A stretch of 64,000 nt of DNA from Verrucomicrobiia bacterium. Its GTDB lineage: Bacteria > Verrucomicrobiota > Verrucomicrobiia > Verrucomicrobiales > DEV007. Below the pieces are notes generated by a model, which had not been told where the DNA came from, did not search any database, and saw nothing but the letters and a program-made list of their open reading frames with translations. The translations under genes and the position numbers were made by a program. Shown one piece after another: positions 26,259-36,025 of the stretch; the first letter of the stretch is position 1; the number at the start of each line of letters is the position of its first letter. Location: contig JAUICH010000006.1 of the NCBI GenBank assembly GCA_030427505.1, positions 124,001 through 188,000 on the forward strand, in the 5' to 3' direction.

Positions 26259-27356
26259 ATGGCAAAGCACGTCGTCATCGCCTGCGGCGGTACCGGGGGA
26301 CACCTTTTCCCCGGCATAGCCGTGGCGGAAGAACTCCGGAAAGCGGGGCACGAAGCCCTGCTCCTGATCTCCGAAAAAGAGATCGATAAGCTCGCCACCG
26401 AAGGCTACGGGCACCTCCGCTTTCGGACCGTGCCGTCCATCGGCATGCCGAAGCTGTTTTCGCCCAAGATGATCTCCTTCCTCTGGGGCTTTTTCAAAAG
26501 CGCCCTGCAGTGCCGGACGATTTTGAAGGACTTCGGGGCGGACACGGTGCTGGGCATGGGTGGCTTTACCTCCACGGGACCGCTCATGGCGGGCCGGTGG
26601 GCCAAGTGCCGGACCTTCATTCATGAGTCCAACGCCATTCCCGGCCGCGCGAACCGGCTGAACGCGAAATTTTCCGACGTGGTGCTGCTGGGCCTGAAAG
26701 AATGCGCCGCCTTTTTCCCCGCCGGGAAGACCCGGGTGGTGGGCACGCCGCTGCGGCCGGCGATTCTGAACCGGCCCTCCCGCGAGGAGGGCCTGGCGAA
26801 GTTCGGCCTGAACCCGGAACTGAAAACCATCCTGGTCATGGGGGGCAGCCAAGGCGCGCGCGGGGTGAACGACCTGTTCCGCAAGGCCTTTTCCATGCTG
26901 CCGCAGGACCAAGTGCAGGTGCTCCACATTGCCGGGCCACAGGATTACGAGGCGGTGAAAATGTCCTTCGAAATTTCCGGCATGGAGGGCGCGGTGCTGC
27001 CCTTTTGCCAGGAAATCCAGTATGCCTACGCGGCCTCCGATTTGGCGGTGGCGCGTTCCGGCGCGTCCAGCCTGGCGGAGCTGTGTTACTTCGGGCTTCC
27101 GGCCATTCTCATTCCATACCCTTTCGCGGCGGATGATCACCAGACACGAAATGCTGAAATATTCGACCGCGCCGGAGCGTGTTATCTGTGGCCGCAAAAC
27201 GAGATCCAGGCACGGGAGCTGGCGGACAAGGTCATTGACATGTTGAGCGATCAAACGAGTCTTTCCGGATTTTCGGCCCGCATGCGGGAACTGGCGGTGG
27301 CGGACTCCGCCGCCCAGGTCCGGAAAGCCATCGAGGAGATTGAGCAGGGGAAGTAG
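26259..27356 (+). CDS. murG: UDP-GlcNAc:lipid I transferase MurG
   Basis: MurG adds GlcNAc to lipid I to form lipid II at the cytoplasmic face of the inner membrane. The 365-residue GT-B protein has the N-terminal glycine loop CGGTGGHLFPGIAVAEEL, FIHESNAIPGRANRL, the second glycine loop VMGGSQGARGVND, and the donor-binding segment SGASSLAELCYFGLPAILIP followed by YPFAADDHQ. All are typical. It is followed by the murC-murB fusion eight bases later. Confidence 0.96.
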   Translation: MAKHVVIACGGTGGHLFPGIAVAEELRKAGHEALLLISEKEIDKLATEGYGHLRFRTVPSIGMPKLFSPKMISFLWGFFKSALQCRTILKDFGADTVLGMGGFTSTGPLMAGRWAKCRTFIHESNAIPGRANRLNAKFSDVVLLGLKECAAFFPAGKTRVVGTPLRPAILNRPSREEGLAKFGLNPELKTILVMGGSQGARGVNDLFRKAFSMLPQDQVQVLHIAGPQDYEAVKMSFEISGMEGAVLPFCQEIQYAYAASDLAVARSGASSLAELCYFGLPAILIPYPFAADDHQTRNAEIFDRAGACYLWPQNEIQARELADKVIDMLSDQTSLSGFSARMRELAVADSAAQVRKAIEEIEQGK

Positions 27357-27363
27357 CAGCAAG

Positions 27364-29682
27364 ATGAATCAGGAGTGGACAGGCGCGCTGGATCTTAGCC
27401 GGGAAGGGAACCCGCCTCTCTGGATTCACCTCATCGGCGTGGCCGGTTCGGGCATGAGCGGGCTGGCCCTGCTGCTGATGGGCATGGGCCACCGGGTGAG
27501 CGGTTCGGATCGGGTGACGACCCAGGAGACCGAGCGGATGGAACGGCTGGGCCTGGACTTTACCTGTCCTCACACTGCGGAGTCGGTGGAAGGCGCGGAC
27601 TTGGTGGTGTATTCCTCCGCCATCCGGCCCGGGAACGCGGCCTATGACGCCGCGGTGAGCCTGGGGATTCCCATGATCCGCCGGGCCGAAGCGCTGGCGG
27701 CGATCCTGAACGCGAAGAAGGGCATCATCGTGGCGGGCACGCATGGCAAGACCACGACCTCTTCCCTCTGCGCCCATGCCCTGCGGGCCGGGGGGCGCCA
27801 GCCGTCGCACTACGTGGGGGCGGAGATTCCCATCCTGGGCAGCAACGCGCTGTGGGTGCCGGAGACGCCGTGGATGGTCGCGGAAGGAGACGAAAGCGAC
27901 GGCACCCTGGTGAACTACCGGCCGGAGCACGGCATTCTGCTCAATATCGAGGCCGAGCATCTGGATCATTACAAAGACTTGGACGCGATCAAAGACGTGT
28001 TCGCGACCCTGCTGGATCAGACGGCGGGCAGCATTGTCTATTGCGGGGAAGACCCTGTCGCCACGGAGCTGGCCGGGCCCCGGGAGCGGTCTGTCTCATA
28101 CGGCTGGAGCAAGAGCCAGGACTACAGCGCCCACGAATTGAAGATGGGCGCCGCCGAGTCCGAGTTTGACGTATTTGCCCGGGGCCAGTCCCTGGGCCGG
28201 GTGCGGCTGAACATTCCCGGCCGGCACAACGTGCTGAACGCGTTGGCGGTGATCGCGCTAACCACGGAAATGGGTGTGCCCTTTGACAAAGTGGCCGAGG
28301 CCCTCGGTTCCTTCCAGGGCGCGCGGCGGCGTTTCGAGCGGAAGTACGAATCCGAAACCTACGCCGTGTTTGACGACTACGGCCATCACCCGAGCGAGAT
28401 CCGCGCAACGCTGCAAACCGCGCGGTCCTGCCAGCCGAAGCGCCTGATTTGCCTATTCCAGCCGCATCGCTACACCCGCACCCAACTGATGAAAGATGAG
28501 TTCGGGGCGGCCTTTGACGCGGCGGACCGGCTCTACGTGGCGGATATTTATCCCGCGAGCGAGCCGCCGATTCCCGGCATTTCCGGCGAGACCATCGTGG
28601 ATGCCGTGAAGGCCTCTGGTGGGGTGGAGGCGTTTTCACATCCTGATAAGAAGACCATTCACTGGCCGGTGGGGAACCAGGTGACACCGGGAGATTTCAT
28701 TCTCACCCTGGGTGCGGGGGACATCCATGAAGCGGGGACCCGCTTGGCGGCGGACCTGAAGACTCTGGAAAAACTGCGGACCGCATTGGACGAGGAAGAC
28801 GCCGTGATCCGGCTCTATGAACCGATGCGGCGGCATACCACGCTGAAAGTGGGGGGACCCGCGCAGTTCTGGGTGGAACCTTCGACTGCAAGGGGGCTCT
28901 CCCGCCTGATCGTCTTTTGCAAAGAAGTTGGACTGCCGCTGAGCTTCGTGGGGCGGGGGTCGAACCTGCTGGTGCGCGACGGCGGCATCCCTGGCGTGGT
29001 GGCCCACCTGGACCGGGGCGAGTTCAGCGAGTTCGATGTCAACGGCGGCGACACGATTCGGGCTGGGGCGGGTATCCGTTTCAAGAAGTTGAGCGCCATC
29101 GCGCAGAACGCGGGACTGGGTGGCTTTGAGTGGATGGAGGGTATTCCCGGAAACGTGGGCGGCGGCATCCGGATGAACGCCGGGGCCATGGGCTCGGCGA
29201 CGTTCGACCAGGTGGTGTCCGTCCGTTTCGTGGACGAGACGGGTGAGATTCGCGAGAAGACCGTGACCGAGATCGAGCCGCGTTACCGCGACACGCCGGA
29301 GTTTGAAGACCAGCCCGTGGTGTCCGTCGTCTTCCGGGGGCGTCCCGCGACGGACGCGGCGGAGATCAGCCGCCTTCTTGACGCTTCCAAGGAAAAGCGC
29401 AAGACCAGCCAGCCGGTGGCCGCCTGCGCGGGCTGCATTTTCAAGAACCCGGAAACCGTTCCGGCGGGCATGCTGGTGGATCAGCTGGGCCTGAAGAACC
29501 AGGGCGAAGGCCGGGCCCGTGTGTCCGAAGTTCATGGCAACTTCATCGTGAACGATGGGGACGCGACGGCGCGCGACGTGCTGGACCTGATTGCCCGCAT
29601 CCAGGAAACCGCCCGCCAGGAACGGGGGATCGAGCTGGAGACCGAGGTGAAGATCGTCGGCGTGGATGCCCCCAGTTTTTGA
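27364..29682 (+). CDS. murC/murB: MurC-MurB fusion: UDP-MurNAc-L-Ala ligase plus UDP-GlcNAc-enolpyruvate reductase
   Basis: This 772-residue protein joins two cytosolic precursor enzymes. Residues 1 to about 460 are MurC: HLIGVAGSGMSGLALLL, the ATP loop G125-THGKTTTSS, AEGDESDGTLVNY and DDYGHHPSEIRATL. Residues from about 480 are MurB: the FAD-binding HTTLKVGGPAQFWVEPST and VGRGSNLLVRDGGIPGVV, GIPGNVGGGIRMNAGAMGS, and a C-terminal part with CAGCIFKNP and VSEVHGNFIVNDGDAT. The proton-donating serine of MurB (SAGSVFKNP in most enzymes) is cysteine here, C691. MurB makes UDP-MurNAc and MurC uses it, so consecutive steps are joined although MurC comes first. I chose the ATG at 27364, preceded by AGGGGAAG; an in-frame TTG at 27340 would overlap murG. 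Confidence 0.95.
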   Translation: MNQEWTGALDLSREGNPPLWIHLIGVAGSGMSGLALLLMGMGHRVSGSDRVTTQETERMERLGLDFTCPHTAESVEGADLVVYSSAIRPGNAAYDAAVSLGIPMIRRAEALAAILNAKKGIIVAGTHGKTTTSSLCAHALRAGGRQPSHYVGAEIPILGSNALWVPETPWMVAEGDESDGTLVNYRPEHGILLNIEAEHLDHYKDLDAIKDVFATLLDQTAGSIVYCGEDPVATELAGPRERSVSYGWSKSQDYSAHELKMGAAESEFDVFARGQSLGRVRLNIPGRHNVLNALAVIALTTEMGVPFDKVAEALGSFQGARRRFERKYESETYAVFDDYGHHPSEIRATLQTARSCQPKRLICLFQPHRYTRTQLMKDEFGAAFDAADRLYVADIYPASEPPIPGISGETIVDAVKASGGVEAFSHPDKKTIHWPVGNQVTPGDFILTLGAGDIHEAGTRLAADLKTLEKLRTALDEEDAVIRLYEPMRRHTTLKVGGPAQFWVEPSTARGLSRLIVFCKEVGLPLSFVGRGSNLLVRDGGIPGVVAHLDRGEFSEFDVNGGDTIRAGAGIRFKKLSAIAQNAGLGGFEWMEGIPGNVGGGIRMNAGAMGSATFDQVVSVRFVDETGEIREKTVTEIEPRYRDTPEFEDQPVVSVVFRGRPATDAAEISRLLDASKEKRKTSQPVAACAGCIFKNPETVPAGMLVDQLGLKNQGEGRARVSEVHGNFIVNDGDATARDVLDLIARIQETARQERGIELETEVKIVGVDAPSF

Positions 29683-31737: not shown

Positions 31738-32967
31738 ATGGCAAAAAGCAACATATACGTGGGTTTGGAGATTGGTACCTCCAAGATCTGCGTTGTGGTG
31801 GGTGAAGTCCGCGGAGATGGCGCCATTAAGATTTTGGGCGTGGGGCAGCACCCGTCCGCCGGAGTGCGGAAGGGGGAGATCACGGATTTTGAAACCGCGC
31901 AGACCTGCCTGCACGACGCCTTGGTGAAGGCGGAAGACCGTAGCGACGTCATGGTCAAGAATGTGTTCTTGGCGGTGACTGGCGCGCACATCGAAAGCCT
32001 GAACAATCGCGGCTGCATTCGCATTGCGGACGATCAGAACGAGATCACCGCCGATGACCTGGAAGAAGTAAAAGAGATCGCCCGGGACGTGGCGATTCCC
32101 CAGAGCAATGCCTTTATCCACAGCATCGTTCAGCACTACTATGTGGACGGGCAGGAAAAAGTGGTAAACCCGGTGAGCATGCTGGGTCAGAAGCTGGAGG
32201 CGGACTACCACATCATTCACGGGGTGCGGAACCGCATTCAGAACGCCATCCGTTGCGTGCGGGAAGCTCCGCTGGAAGTGGAAGACATTGTGTTCAGCCC
32301 CATCGCGGCGGCGCAGGTGGTGTTGAACCGGGAAGCGAAGCAGCAGGGCGCCATTTTGATCGACATCGGTGGGGGCACGGCGGACTATGTGCTCTATGTG
32401 GACGGCGCGGTGGTGGCCTCCGGCTGCCTGGGCCTGGGGGGCGACCACATTACCAATGACCTTTCTATCATATTGAAAGTACCGCTAGCCAAAGCGGAGA
32501 AGCTGAAGAAAGAGCACGGCAGCGTGCGGCTGGACAAAGCCGAGCCGGGCGAGATGATCGTGCTGGAGGGGGATACCCATTTCGTGGGCACCAAAGTGGA
32601 GAAAGCCCTGGTGAATCAGGTGGCCTACATGCGCGCCCGGGAAATCCTGGAACTGATCCAGAAGAAGCTGTCCGCCACCGGCTACCTGAATCGGGTGGGG
32701 AAGGGCATTTACCTGACCGGCGGCACGAGTCTGCTGGATGGGCTGGATGTGTTGGCGGAAGAGATCTTCGAGTTGCCGGTGCAGCGGGCAAACGCCGCTG
32801 CCATGACGGGTCCGGCGGCGATCTTCGAGAACCCGCAATACGCCACGCCGGTGGGGCTGATTCGCTACGCCCAACTCATCGACGAGCAACGTCCCGCCAA
32901 GGGACCGATTCAGTCACTGGGCAAGAAAGTGGCCGGATTTTTCGGGGCCGTCCGGTCCATGTTTTGA
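31738..32967 (+). CDS. ftsA: Actin-like division protein FtsA
   Basis: FtsA is the actin-like ATPase that ties FtsZ filaments to the membrane. The 409-residue protein has the phosphate-1 loop YVGLEIGTSKICVVVGE, the 1C subdomain (VTGAHIESLNNRGCI), phosphate-2 LIDIGGGTADYVLY and the adenosine motif GIYLTGGTSLLDG. The C-terminus (LGKKVAGFFGAVRSMF) is an amphipathic helix, the usual membrane-targeting sequence. It follows ftsQ by 66 nt and is separated from ftsZ by an unusually long 310-bp gap. Confidence 0.96.
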   Translation: MAKSNIYVGLEIGTSKICVVVGEVRGDGAIKILGVGQHPSAGVRKGEITDFETAQTCLHDALVKAEDRSDVMVKNVFLAVTGAHIESLNNRGCIRIADDQNEITADDLEEVKEIARDVAIPQSNAFIHSIVQHYYVDGQEKVVNPVSMLGQKLEADYHIIHGVRNRIQNAIRCVREAPLEVEDIVFSPIAAAQVVLNREAKQQGAILIDIGGGTADYVLYVDGAVVASGCLGLGGDHITNDLSIILKVPLAKAEKLKKEHGSVRLDKAEPGEMIVLEGDTHFVGTKVEKALVNQVAYMRAREILELIQKKLSATGYLNRVGKGIYLTGGTSLLDGLDVLAEEIFELPVQRANAAAMTGPAAIFENPQYATPVGLIRYAQLIDEQRPAKGPIQSLGKKVAGFFGAVRSMF

Positions 32968-33277: not shown

Positions 33278-36025
33278 ATGATAGAATACAGCCTAGCCGA
33301 ACAATCGGAGATGCCCGAGACTTCGGGATTTTCGGTCAAGATTATTGGCGTCGGTGGCGCGGGGGCGAATGTCCTGGACCGGATGGCGCTGGAAGGCGCC
33401 GATGACGCGGATCTCCTGACCATTAATACCGATGTCCGGGCCCTGACCACTTCGGTTTCCAATCACAAAATTCAGTTGGGCAAGCGGCTGCTCATGGGTA
33501 TGGGCGCGGGCGGCGATCCGGACCTGGGCCGTCAGGCGGCGCAGGAAGCGGAGGAAGAAATCCGCGCGGCGGTGAAGGGGCACAACATGATCTTCGTGTG
33601 CGCGGGCTTGGGCGGCGGCACCGGTTCCGGTTCCACCCCCGAGATCTGCCGCATCGCCCGTGAGGAAGGGGTCTTCCTGGTGGTGTTCGCGACGCTGCCG
33701 TTCACCTTCGAAGGCAGGCGCCGGATGGAGCAGGCCAAGGTGTCCCTGAAAAAAATCGGAGAGTTTGCCAACGCCATCGTCACGTTCGAGAACGACCGGA
33801 TGGGCGAATTGATCGTGGCGAAGGAGGGCATTCAGCAGGCCTTTGCCGCGGCGGACCGCATTATCAGCCAGAGCATTCGAGCCACTACCAGCGTGGTAAC
33901 GCAGCCGGGCATCATCCGCATTGGCATGGACGACCTGTTGTCCGCCCTGCGGAGCCGGGATTCGCGCTGCCTGTTCGGCTTTGGCCAGGCCAAGGGCGAC
34001 AACCGGGCGCAGGAGGCACTGAATCAGGCCCTGAAGAGTCCGTTGCTGGACCGGGGCCGCATGCTGAACTCCTGTCACAATGTGCTGATCCACATTGCGG
34101 GTGGGGAGTCGATGACGCTTTACGAAGTAGAATTGCTCATGAAAGAGCTGTCCCGCCATGTTAGCGAGCAGACCCAGATCCTGTTTGGGGCTGCCGTGGA
34201 CAAGAAGCTGGGCGCCACCCTGAACGTCACGGTCATCAGTTCCCTGGCCGGAGATCCGGTGGAAGATTTTCATTTGCCCGAGGCGAAAGAGGAGGCGGTT
34301 TCCGAGACGGAAGAAAAAAAGCCTGAGACAGCTCCGGAACCCGCGGGCGCGGCCGTGAGCGAAGAGACGCCGAAAGCGGAAGCGCCGCGGCAGAAGGAAG
34401 CTCCGAAAGAAGAAGCGGTAGCAGCGGCAAAGTCTGAGCCGGTAGAGGCCCCGGAAAAAACGGAAGAACGCACGTCCAGAACGTCGTTCCCGTCTTTCCT
34501 TACGGCGGTGGTGCCTCCCCAGGAGTCCGGCGAATCCCAAGAAAAGCAAGCCGCCCCCAAGTCTGAAAAACCCGCGGCTGAAGACCAGCCGAAAGCGGAA
34601 GCCAAATCCAAAGCGGAACCAAGGCCGGAGGCGAAACCCGAGCCCAAGCCTGAACCGAAGGCGGCGAAGGAAGAGGCTCCAACCCCCACTCCGGAAAAGA
34701 AACCGGCGGCGGAAGCTGCTCCGGCTGAAACGAAGATGCCGGAGAAGCCGCGCGGAGAGAAGTCGAGCCTCTTTACCGAGGAACCGGCTTCTAAGTCCAG
34801 CTCGTTGCCCGGGTTTGAAATGGATTCTGGCGAGTTTCCAGAAGATCTGGACTCCATTGGCGGTGAGACTAGCCGGCCCGCGGAACCGCGGTCCGCTCCC
34901 GCCAGCCTGCCAAAGGAAAGCCAGCCGGCGGCCGCGCCGGGCGAACTGGATGGAGATCCTTTGCCGCCGAACTGGAGCGCTCCCCAGTCCGCTTCCGGAC
35001 TGTCGCAGATGTCTCCCTTTGAAGTGGTGGAAGGCGATGACGATTTTCCGCCGGCCAATGAGGAGCCGAAGAAGACGAACCGGAAGAGCAGCACCGGCTA
35101 CCCGACTTCCTATGAGTCTTCCTCCAGCACTGGCGACGGAGGCGGAGATCCCTGGACGAAATCGAAGTCTCCGGGCATGTCCGGTCTGGACATGGATAGC
35201 TACGAGCCTTCCGCTCCGGCCAATCCCGGTACCGGTGGCGGCGGATCGGGGCTCCCGTGGATCGACAGCGTGATTCCCACCGTAAAAAAGAAGGAGGAGG
35301 GGAAGGATGACTCCCCCTCCAACACCAAGCAGGCGGATTCGCCAGTTTCACGCGGACCGGCATCGGACTTTGCTTCGTACGAACCGGCTATCGGCCGCCG
35401 GGAGGAAGGGAGTAGCGGCAGCAAGGCGTCGAAAGAGTTTTCCCAACCGCTTCACCAGAAAAGCGCCAGTCTGGGACCCATTGGGGGAGGCGAAAGTCCG
35501 TTTGGAGGACCCTCCGCGCCAGACTCGAAGAGTGAAACCGGCGGTGGCCTGCAGCCTCCGCCGCTGGACCCGAGTGCTCCCGCGCCTTTTGGAGGCTCTT
35601 CTCCGGCGGTGGGAAGCGGCGGAGGATTTGTCCTGGAACTGGGGTCGGAATCTCAGTCCATTACCCTGACGGAAGTCGGCGCCGGAGGTTTTGAAGACAG
35701 CCCTGTCGCCAAAGAGACTTTGGGTAGCGGAAAGAGCCCGGAAAGCAGCCCGTCACGGGAACCGGCATCCAAGCCTTTGTTCGAAGAAGAGGGTAAATCG
35801 CCCAAGGAAGAAGCTCCTGTCCAGAGCGGGGCCGAGACCCCGCCGGAATTTTCTGGCGCGGCACCTGCCTCCAGTGAAGGTGGGGAAAGAAAGCCACCCT
35901 CCCACCAAGGGATGCTCCCGCTCGATCCAGTGGCGAAGGGGCGCTTTGCGAAGACCGAGCCGACCATCGTGGATGGCGAGGACATGGACGTGCCGACCTT
36001 TCTGCGGAAGCGGAAGATTGGCTGA
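33278..36025 (+). CDS. ftsZ: FtsZ with very long disordered linker and altered T7 loop
   Basis: FtsZ is the tubulin-like GTPase that forms the division ring. The core occupies about residues 18-325: KIIGVGGAGANVLDRM, the GTP signature G112-GGTGSGS119 (usually GGGTGTG), and NAIVTFENDRMGEL. The catalytic T7 loop, NxDxxD in nearly all FtsZ, reads R214-I-G216-M-D-D219, so the asparagine and the first aspartate are replaced. Residues about 326-895 are a disordered linker rich in Glu, Lys, Pro, Ala and then Ser and Gly, roughly ten times the usual length. The last 14 residues (DMDVPTFLRKRKIG) are an intact C-terminal peptide for FtsA binding with a basic tail. An alternative ATG at 33311 has CGGAG upstream. 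Confidence 0.95.
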   Translation: MIEYSLAEQSEMPETSGFSVKIIGVGGAGANVLDRMALEGADDADLLTINTDVRALTTSVSNHKIQLGKRLLMGMGAGGDPDLGRQAAQEAEEEIRAAVKGHNMIFVCAGLGGGTGSGSTPEICRIAREEGVFLVVFATLPFTFEGRRRMEQAKVSLKKIGEFANAIVTFENDRMGELIVAKEGIQQAFAAADRIISQSIRATTSVVTQPGIIRIGMDDLLSALRSRDSRCLFGFGQAKGDNRAQEALNQALKSPLLDRGRMLNSCHNVLIHIAGGESMTLYEVELLMKELSRHVSEQTQILFGAAVDKKLGATLNVTVISSLAGDPVEDFHLPEAKEEAVSETEEKKPETAPEPAGAAVSEETPKAEAPRQKEAPKEEAVAAAKSEPVEAPEKTEERTSRTSFPSFLTAVVPPQESGESQEKQAAPKSEKPAAEDQPKAEAKSKAEPRPEAKPEPKPEPKAAKEEAPTPTPEKKPAAEAAPAETKMPEKPRGEKSSLFTEEPASKSSSLPGFEMDSGEFPEDLDSIGGETSRPAEPRSAPASLPKESQPAAAPGELDGDPLPPNWSAPQSASGLSQMSPFEVVEGDDDFPPANEEPKKTNRKSSTGYPTSYESSSSTGDGGGDPWTKSKSPGMSGLDMDSYEPSAPANPGTGGGGSGLPWIDSVIPTVKKKEEGKDDSPSNTKQADSPVSRGPASDFASYEPAIGRREEGSSGSKASKEFSQPLHQKSASLGPIGGGESPFGGPSAPDSKSETGGGLQPPPLDPSAPAPFGGSSPAVGSGGGFVLELGSESQSITLTEVGAGGFEDSPVAKETLGSGKSPESSPSREPASKPLFEEEGKSPKEEAPVQSGAETPPEFSGAAPASSEGGERKPPSHQGMLPLDPVAKGRFAKTEPTIVDGEDMDVPTFLRKRKIG

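Follow-up and report, generated by a model that had tools for sequence, protein, structure and literature searches.

The ftsZ gene of the window (the whole 64,000-nucleotide stretch of Verrucomicrobiia DNA analyzed here) raises the question of whether a protein whose T7 loop departs from the canonical motif is still an orthologous FtsZ, and how its filament-interface GTPase site may work. The first-pass annotation of this DNA had described the unusual loop and a very long linker, and had predicted ring dynamics different from the textbook case.

Identity of the protein and its active-site residues

The gene, its core and its upstream neighbor lie as follows.

31738..32967, + strand: ftsA, the immediate upstream partner of ftsZ (TIGR01174, 350 bits; cut-off 176)
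33278..36025, + strand: ftsZ ORF, 915 aa with an ATG start, the sole FtsZ found in the assembly
33329..34240, + strand: FtsZ core, residues 18-321, comprising the GTPase domain and the FtsZ_C domain (PF00091, 131 bits; PF12327, 75 bits)
33611..33634, + strand: T4 loop with the tubulin signature GGGTGSGS, read from the translation

The protein exceeded the Pfam cut-offs for both the Tubulin/FtsZ GTPase domain and FtsZ_C, the two domains expected of an FtsZ. Its score of 271.2 bits against the NCBIfam equivalog TIGR00065 was below the curated cut-off of 295.2, as a divergent ortholog lying under the NCBI threshold for automatic naming. The AlphaFold2 model of the core (pLDDT 86.4, pTM 0.84) gave B. 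subtilis and S. aureus FtsZ as the top Foldseek matches. The gene is single-copy and adjoins ftsA within a dcw cluster, as expected of an ortholog; the cluster also contains murF, mraY, murD, ftsW, murG, a murC-murB fusion, ddl and a gene of the FtsQ type with a POTRA domain. A murC-murB fusion (here at window positions 27340-29682) has also been reported for V. spinosum (PMC12283558). Searches of the 96.5% complete assembly with the Tubulin-family and FtsZ_C profiles gave one Tubulin-family match and one FtsZ_C match over its cut-off; therefore, no second, canonical FtsZ, a possibility raised in the first-pass annotation, was found there. The window protein is thus an FtsZ by domain, fold and context. 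BtubA/B and eukaryotic tubulins belong to the same superfamily and share the GGGTGSG signature, which is common within Verrucomicrobiota FtsZs, but they are not orthologous to it.

S. aureus FtsZ numbering is used for active-site positions, because the mechanism was worked out in that species. The S. aureus structures single out D46, Q48, R143, N208, D210 and D213 as key interface residues; D210 swings to place the water for attack, with D213 and G72 assisting in its retention, and a K+ ion is held by N208 and Q48 (PMC8936486). The mutations D210N and N208L abolish assembly of S. aureus FtsZ (PMC8936486). The corresponding residues of the window protein are listed below.

33431..33433, + strand: D52, equivalent to D46 (Mg2+ shell), retained; Asp in 63/63 sequences of the order
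33437..33439, + strand: R54, in the context INTDVRAL, replacing Q48, which secures K+ within the T7 loop of the neighboring subunit
33503..33523, + strand: T3 loop GAGGDPD, in which D80 replaces N74, adjoining a residue that binds the gamma-phosphate; Asp in 63/63 of the order
33722..33724, + strand: R149, equivalent to the catalytic arginine R143, retained; Arg in 62/63 of the order
33899..33934, + strand: T7 loop TQPGIIRIGMDD, with R214 (N208), G216 (D210), D218 (A212) and D219 (D213), read from the codons

The codons bore out the earlier reading of the T7 loop as RxGxxD instead of NxDxxD, with R214, G216, D219 and an additional Asp at 218. These four residues correspond to E. coli N207, D209, A211 and D212, so that N207 and D209 are indeed replaced (by R214 and G216), and the importance that the annotation had attached to them agrees with the structural work cited above. 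Its reading of the signature as GGGTGSGS was also correct. Two active-site changes were absent from it, namely R54 at the Q48 position and D80 at the N74 position; with R214, the former puts arginines where the Q48/N208 clamp for K+ would be. Compared with the canonical FtsZs of S. aureus, B. subtilis and E. coli, the window protein has the same fold, GTP-binding loops, D46, G72 (G78, unchanged), R143 and acid at 213, and has in common the C-terminal peptide and the dcw site beside ftsA, but differs by N208R, D210G, A212D, Q48R and N74D. Another register of the T7 loop was considered and rejected, as the PG anchor and the following helix leave a single alignment, and NxDxxD is not recovered by any shift. 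Loss of the RPF arginine was also rejected as a catalytic change; R143, the residue that matters, corresponds to the final arginine of EGRRR and is retained, and the RPF position is a different one.

Conservation and history of the altered site

The phylum sample comprised 161 FtsZ sequences from 160 Verrucomicrobiota genomes: the window's order contributed 63 sequences, the remaining orders of its class 26, and other classes 72. Repeated rows (L031, L072) and the second fragment at L027 were dropped, loci whose best ORF was identical to one already included were counted once, and the rows cover most, not all, of the 128 genomes that gave an FtsZ_C match in one of the scans. Among 17 genomes without such a match, 16 had a Tubulin-family match. 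The FtsZs of family f8 were too divergent for the T7 loop to be aligned; four of them, from 99% complete genomes (L267, L268, L270 and L272), have an intact C-terminal peptide and no FtsZ_C match.

The non-canonical T7 loop proved to be real, but not a peculiarity of this genome, since D210 is Gly in 62/63 sequences of the order (Glu in one). Q48 is Arg in 60/63, A212 is Asp in 58/63 (Glu in one) and an acid is found at 213 in 60/63, whereas position 208 varies (R 38, Q 8, K 7, N 5, S 2, H 2, G 1). D210 is lost from all 63 sequences, each of which has a basic residue (Arg or Lys) at position 48 or 208, with D46, G72 and R143 conserved in 63, 63 and 62 sequences, respectively. Columns 210, 212 and 48 ranked among the 13-18% of core columns with the least entropy, which is purifying selection on the new residues, and conservation of column 208 was ordinary. 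These replacement residues are conserved no less strictly than structural glycines, so the site in this order looks rebuilt rather than decayed.

For comparison, we used 22 FtsZs from seven phyla (Pseudomonadota, Bacillota, Actinomycetota, Fusobacteriota, Bacteroidota, Campylobacterota and Euryarchaeota), namely E. coli, B. subtilis and 20 from a plasmid collection (60 listed of 113 records), several of which are chromosomes judging by size. In this set, which is not balanced and includes several second or plasmid copies, D210 and D213 were present in 22/22, N208 and the full triad each in 20/22, Gln at position 48 in 19/22, and Asp at the N74 position in 3/22. The order-wide D210G, set against Asp in 22/22 of the control sequences, is more than chance.

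When the T7 loops were aligned across the phylum, the full N208, D210 and D213 triad was found in only 9 of the 161 FtsZs. Both acids were present in 23, exactly one in 132 and neither in 6, so that at least one T7 acid is kept in 155/161; N74 is replaced by Asp in 130/161. The other orders of the class are mostly the opposite of the window's order, keeping D210 (22/26) and losing the acid at 213 (present in only 4/26). In the other classes, D210 was found in 54/72, N208 in 18/72 and an acid at 213 in 38/72. Triad loss is thus a clade trait, not an oddity of one species, and the triad has been broken repeatedly across Verrucomicrobiota.

Planctomycetota and Chlamydiota lack FtsZ, and Verrucomicrobiota sits beside both; the verrucomicrobial changes therefore bear on the dispensability of FtsZ. 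One explanation of the broken triad is that FtsZ is simply decaying in this phylum under relaxed constraint, as a step towards its absence in those two neighbors. We consider this very unlikely as a full account. It would fit the at least 11, 12 and 14 changes of N208, D210 and the acid at 213, respectively, on the core tree, and the other classes, where columns 48 and 208 vary more than the median column does and column 213 lies close to it, a pattern that looks more like relaxed constraint. It would also fit G152, a 92% complete genome of another class with no Tubulin-family or FtsZ_C match, in which FtsZ loss or an assembly gap is possible. However, the new residues are fixed in the window's order, and ftsZ is essential in V. 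spinosum, whose cells divide by binary fission (PMC12283558). Rebuilding and relaxed constraint can both have occurred, in different lineages.

Named genomes were scanned through the best 80 of a longer list of matching loci, in which many entries bear MAG labels and some of the species names are plainly imprecise. Among these 80, position 210 is Gly in 76, 212 is Asp in 71, 213 is Asp or Glu in 77, and 48 is Arg in 58 and Gln in 18. Loci labeled Chthoniobacterales or Spartobacteria mostly have G210 with Gln still at 48, and G210 is combined with a retained N208 in Luteolibacter and many Akkermansiaceae; D210G/A212D therefore probably predates Q48R.

The core tree (164 rows, with the T7 columns and columns 44-50 left out) was built by a quick method with SH-aLRT support only and has several long branches. 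It requires at least 6 changes of the acid at 212. The first-pass annotation had allowed that D218 might replace E. coli D209, which would amount to relocation of the acid: D218, on helix H8, would take over the water positioning of D210 and leave the GTPase essentially normal. An acid at 212 does accompany D210G in 59/63 sequences of the order (Asp 58, Glu 1) and is found in 72 of the 79 named loci without D210 among the best 80. Nevertheless, of 8 independent pairs, loss of D210 coincided with gain of a 212 acid in 0.1 and ran counter to it in 0.4 (not significant); D210G and A212D amount to a single event, and the association is therefore not a repeated one. D218-for-D209 as a coupled change was thus rejected for want of support in the independent pairs. 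Moreover, Ala212 stands with G210 in two sequences of the order with Verrucomicrobium-type loops and in Verrucomicrobium sp. BvORR034 (T7 loop RMGIAD, with Ala at the D218 position), other D210-less lineages of the phylum mostly have no acid at 212, and a shift of two residues in a helix would be expected to face another side. Relocation therefore appears unlikely to us. Over 8 independent pairs for each comparison, loss of D210 showed no repeated tie with loss of the 213 acid (not significant), and it changed the same way as Arg or Lys at 48 or 208 in 1.6 and the opposite way in 0.6 (not significant); repeated pairing of D210 loss with a basic residue at these two positions was accordingly rejected.

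The linker and the C-terminal peptide

The part of the protein beyond the core is divided as follows.

34241..35980, + strand: linker, residues 322-901 (580 aa), rich in Pro, Ser, Glu, Ala and Gly, from profile alignment
35939..36022, + strand: extended conserved C-terminal peptide GRFAKTEPTIVDGEDMDVPTFLRKRKIG, from comparison with 17 relatives

The very long linker and the intact C-terminal peptide described in the first-pass annotation were both recovered, the C-terminus being DMDVPTFLRKRKIG. Linker ends were marked by this peptide, and rows without a recognizable one (6 of 49 complete rows of the order and 15 of 72 of other classes) were excluded. The linker had a median of 252 residues in the order (range 103-600; 43 of 49 complete rows measurable), exceeding 150 in 35 of the 43, as compared with a median of 93 and a maximum of 140 in the other orders of the class (26/26) and a median of 62 and a maximum of 105 in the other classes (57/72). 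Long linkers are an order-wide trait, and the window's is the second longest of the 43, after G020 (600). The E. coli linker has about 50 residues (PMC13170164), and E. coli FtsZ is reported to be functional only with linkers of about 43-95 (PMC9939409).

The whole C-terminal tail has a net charge of -40. Comparison with the 17 relatives gave no conserved motifs within the linker, save in the last ~40 residues, conserved as GRFxKTxPTIVDGEDLDVPTFLRKK. Segments of 14 residues in the extended peptide matched 15-17 of the 17 relatives (the last segment, 6/17), and the motif of the FtsA-binding peptide is present in the sequence. This conserved stretch is longer than the conserved peptide of model species, which has 8 residues (PMC9939409).

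Alphaproteobacterial FtsZs likewise have a long disordered linker before the C-terminal peptide, of more than 170 residues in Caulobacter and about 240 in Agrobacterium, so that the window's is more than twice as long; these long linkers promote FtsZ foci (PMC13170164). In contrast to the window protein, the alphaproteobacterial FtsZs sampled keep the triad (3/3: Paracoccus, Sphingomonas and a Rhizobium plasmid copy).

A possible mechanism and its context

To account for these features, we propose that the protein is an essential, sole FtsZ whose filament-interface GTPase site was remade in the order's ancestor and has been maintained since, a reading to which we give about an even chance. Hydrolysis would persist, probably slowly, with the single T7 acid D219 and R149, as suggested by the retained GTP-binding residues and catalytic arginine and by an acid, Asp or Glu, staying at D213. 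A tethered positive charge would replace K+, provided by R54 from the lower subunit and R214 from the upper one; activity should therefore be K+-independent. We infer this tethered cation from the residues themselves, and loss of D210 is not repeatedly paired with a basic 48 or 208 on the tree. The long disordered linker may act as an entropic spacer ending in the extended FtsA-binding peptide, and by analogy with A. tumefaciens it probably favors foci or condensates.

However, S. aureus FtsZ carrying D210N or N208L no longer assembles (PMC8936486), so a single acid could be insufficient. The protein could instead be a scaffold that binds GTP and assembles with scant hydrolysis, other factors driving turnover, and division would then proceed without hydrolysis-powered treadmilling. 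The loss of the water-positioning D210, the behavior of those S. aureus mutants, and the phylum-wide rarity of the triad, with six sequences having neither acid, are in favor of such a scaffold. We nonetheless doubt it, as 155/161 sequences keep at least one T7 acid, the order keeps R143 and D46 almost without exception, and the strongly conserved replacement residues argue for a working site. Yet another mechanism, evolved within Verrucomicrobiota, would act in cis: D80 (N74D, T3 loop) would supply an acid beside the gamma-phosphate, with arginine for K+, and the T7 residues would therefore be expendable, different lineages losing different ones. We give this little credence. If true, hydrolysis would depend less on the next subunit, GTP turnover would be uncoupled from filament assembly, and relaxation in the PVC group could have later permitted the loss of FtsZ in sister phyla.

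Taken together, the observation in the first-pass annotation is confirmed and its interpretation is partly supported; that ring dynamics would depart from the textbook case is plausible. In FtsZ generally, the T7 residues are regarded as indispensable, which is part of the reason why the T7 loop is a drug target (PMC8456036). A phylum whose single-copy FtsZ is missing parts of the triad suggests that these residues can be traded. Verrucomicrobiota FtsZs may thus be a natural test of how much GTPase motor division needs, and the natural variants without D210, without D213 or without both could be used to test whether division requires hydrolysis-driven treadmilling.

Linker length and the general divergence of these FtsZs are already published. 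Verrucomicrobial FtsZ is ranked among the most divergent (PMC9871819), and cell division in the superphylum has been reviewed (PMC5147048). V. spinosum FtsZ, compared here by its published description, is a divergent 673-aa protein in which eight positions are unusual and the signature serine is present, in a paper whose title calls it canonical (PMC1845146); a transposon study found its extension to be disordered yet essential (PMC12283558). It is thus similar to the window protein in phylum, signature serine, long C-terminal extension and divergent core, and both papers term V. spinosum FtsZ or division canonical. The available text of these four papers was not found to name loss of T7 catalytic residues, and in the accessible literature on verrucomicrobial FtsZ or division no title or abstract was found to report such losses, although Pilhofer et al. 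2008 may have noticed them.

Several other tubulin-family proteins were encountered in these genomes. Two loci in the window's family, outside the Prosthecobacter-like f4, contain bacterial tubulins: L033 (G022:C495:1-5500) and L035 (G010:C108:41000-45500). The former has a clear relative of BtubA (693 bits to BtubA, 2bto), a protein of 507 aa that matches nothing in Pfam, and a much more divergent second tubulin (242 bits), all in a row; in G010 a single site gave two Tubulin-family matches, and the one that was read matches Pfam Tubulin only. Three genomes of family f3 encode an extra tubulin-family protein of ~600 aa (L066, G053:C54; L067, G050:C326; L068, G044:C23), and in L066 the tubulin match begins only past residue 200. 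Finally, L065:366-2369 (G025:C97; also L254) encodes a second FtsZ-like protein without both T7 acids, in a genome whose other FtsZ (L051) has D210G, and its C-terminal end shows a Glyco_tran_28_C (MurG-type) match instead of the C-terminal peptide.
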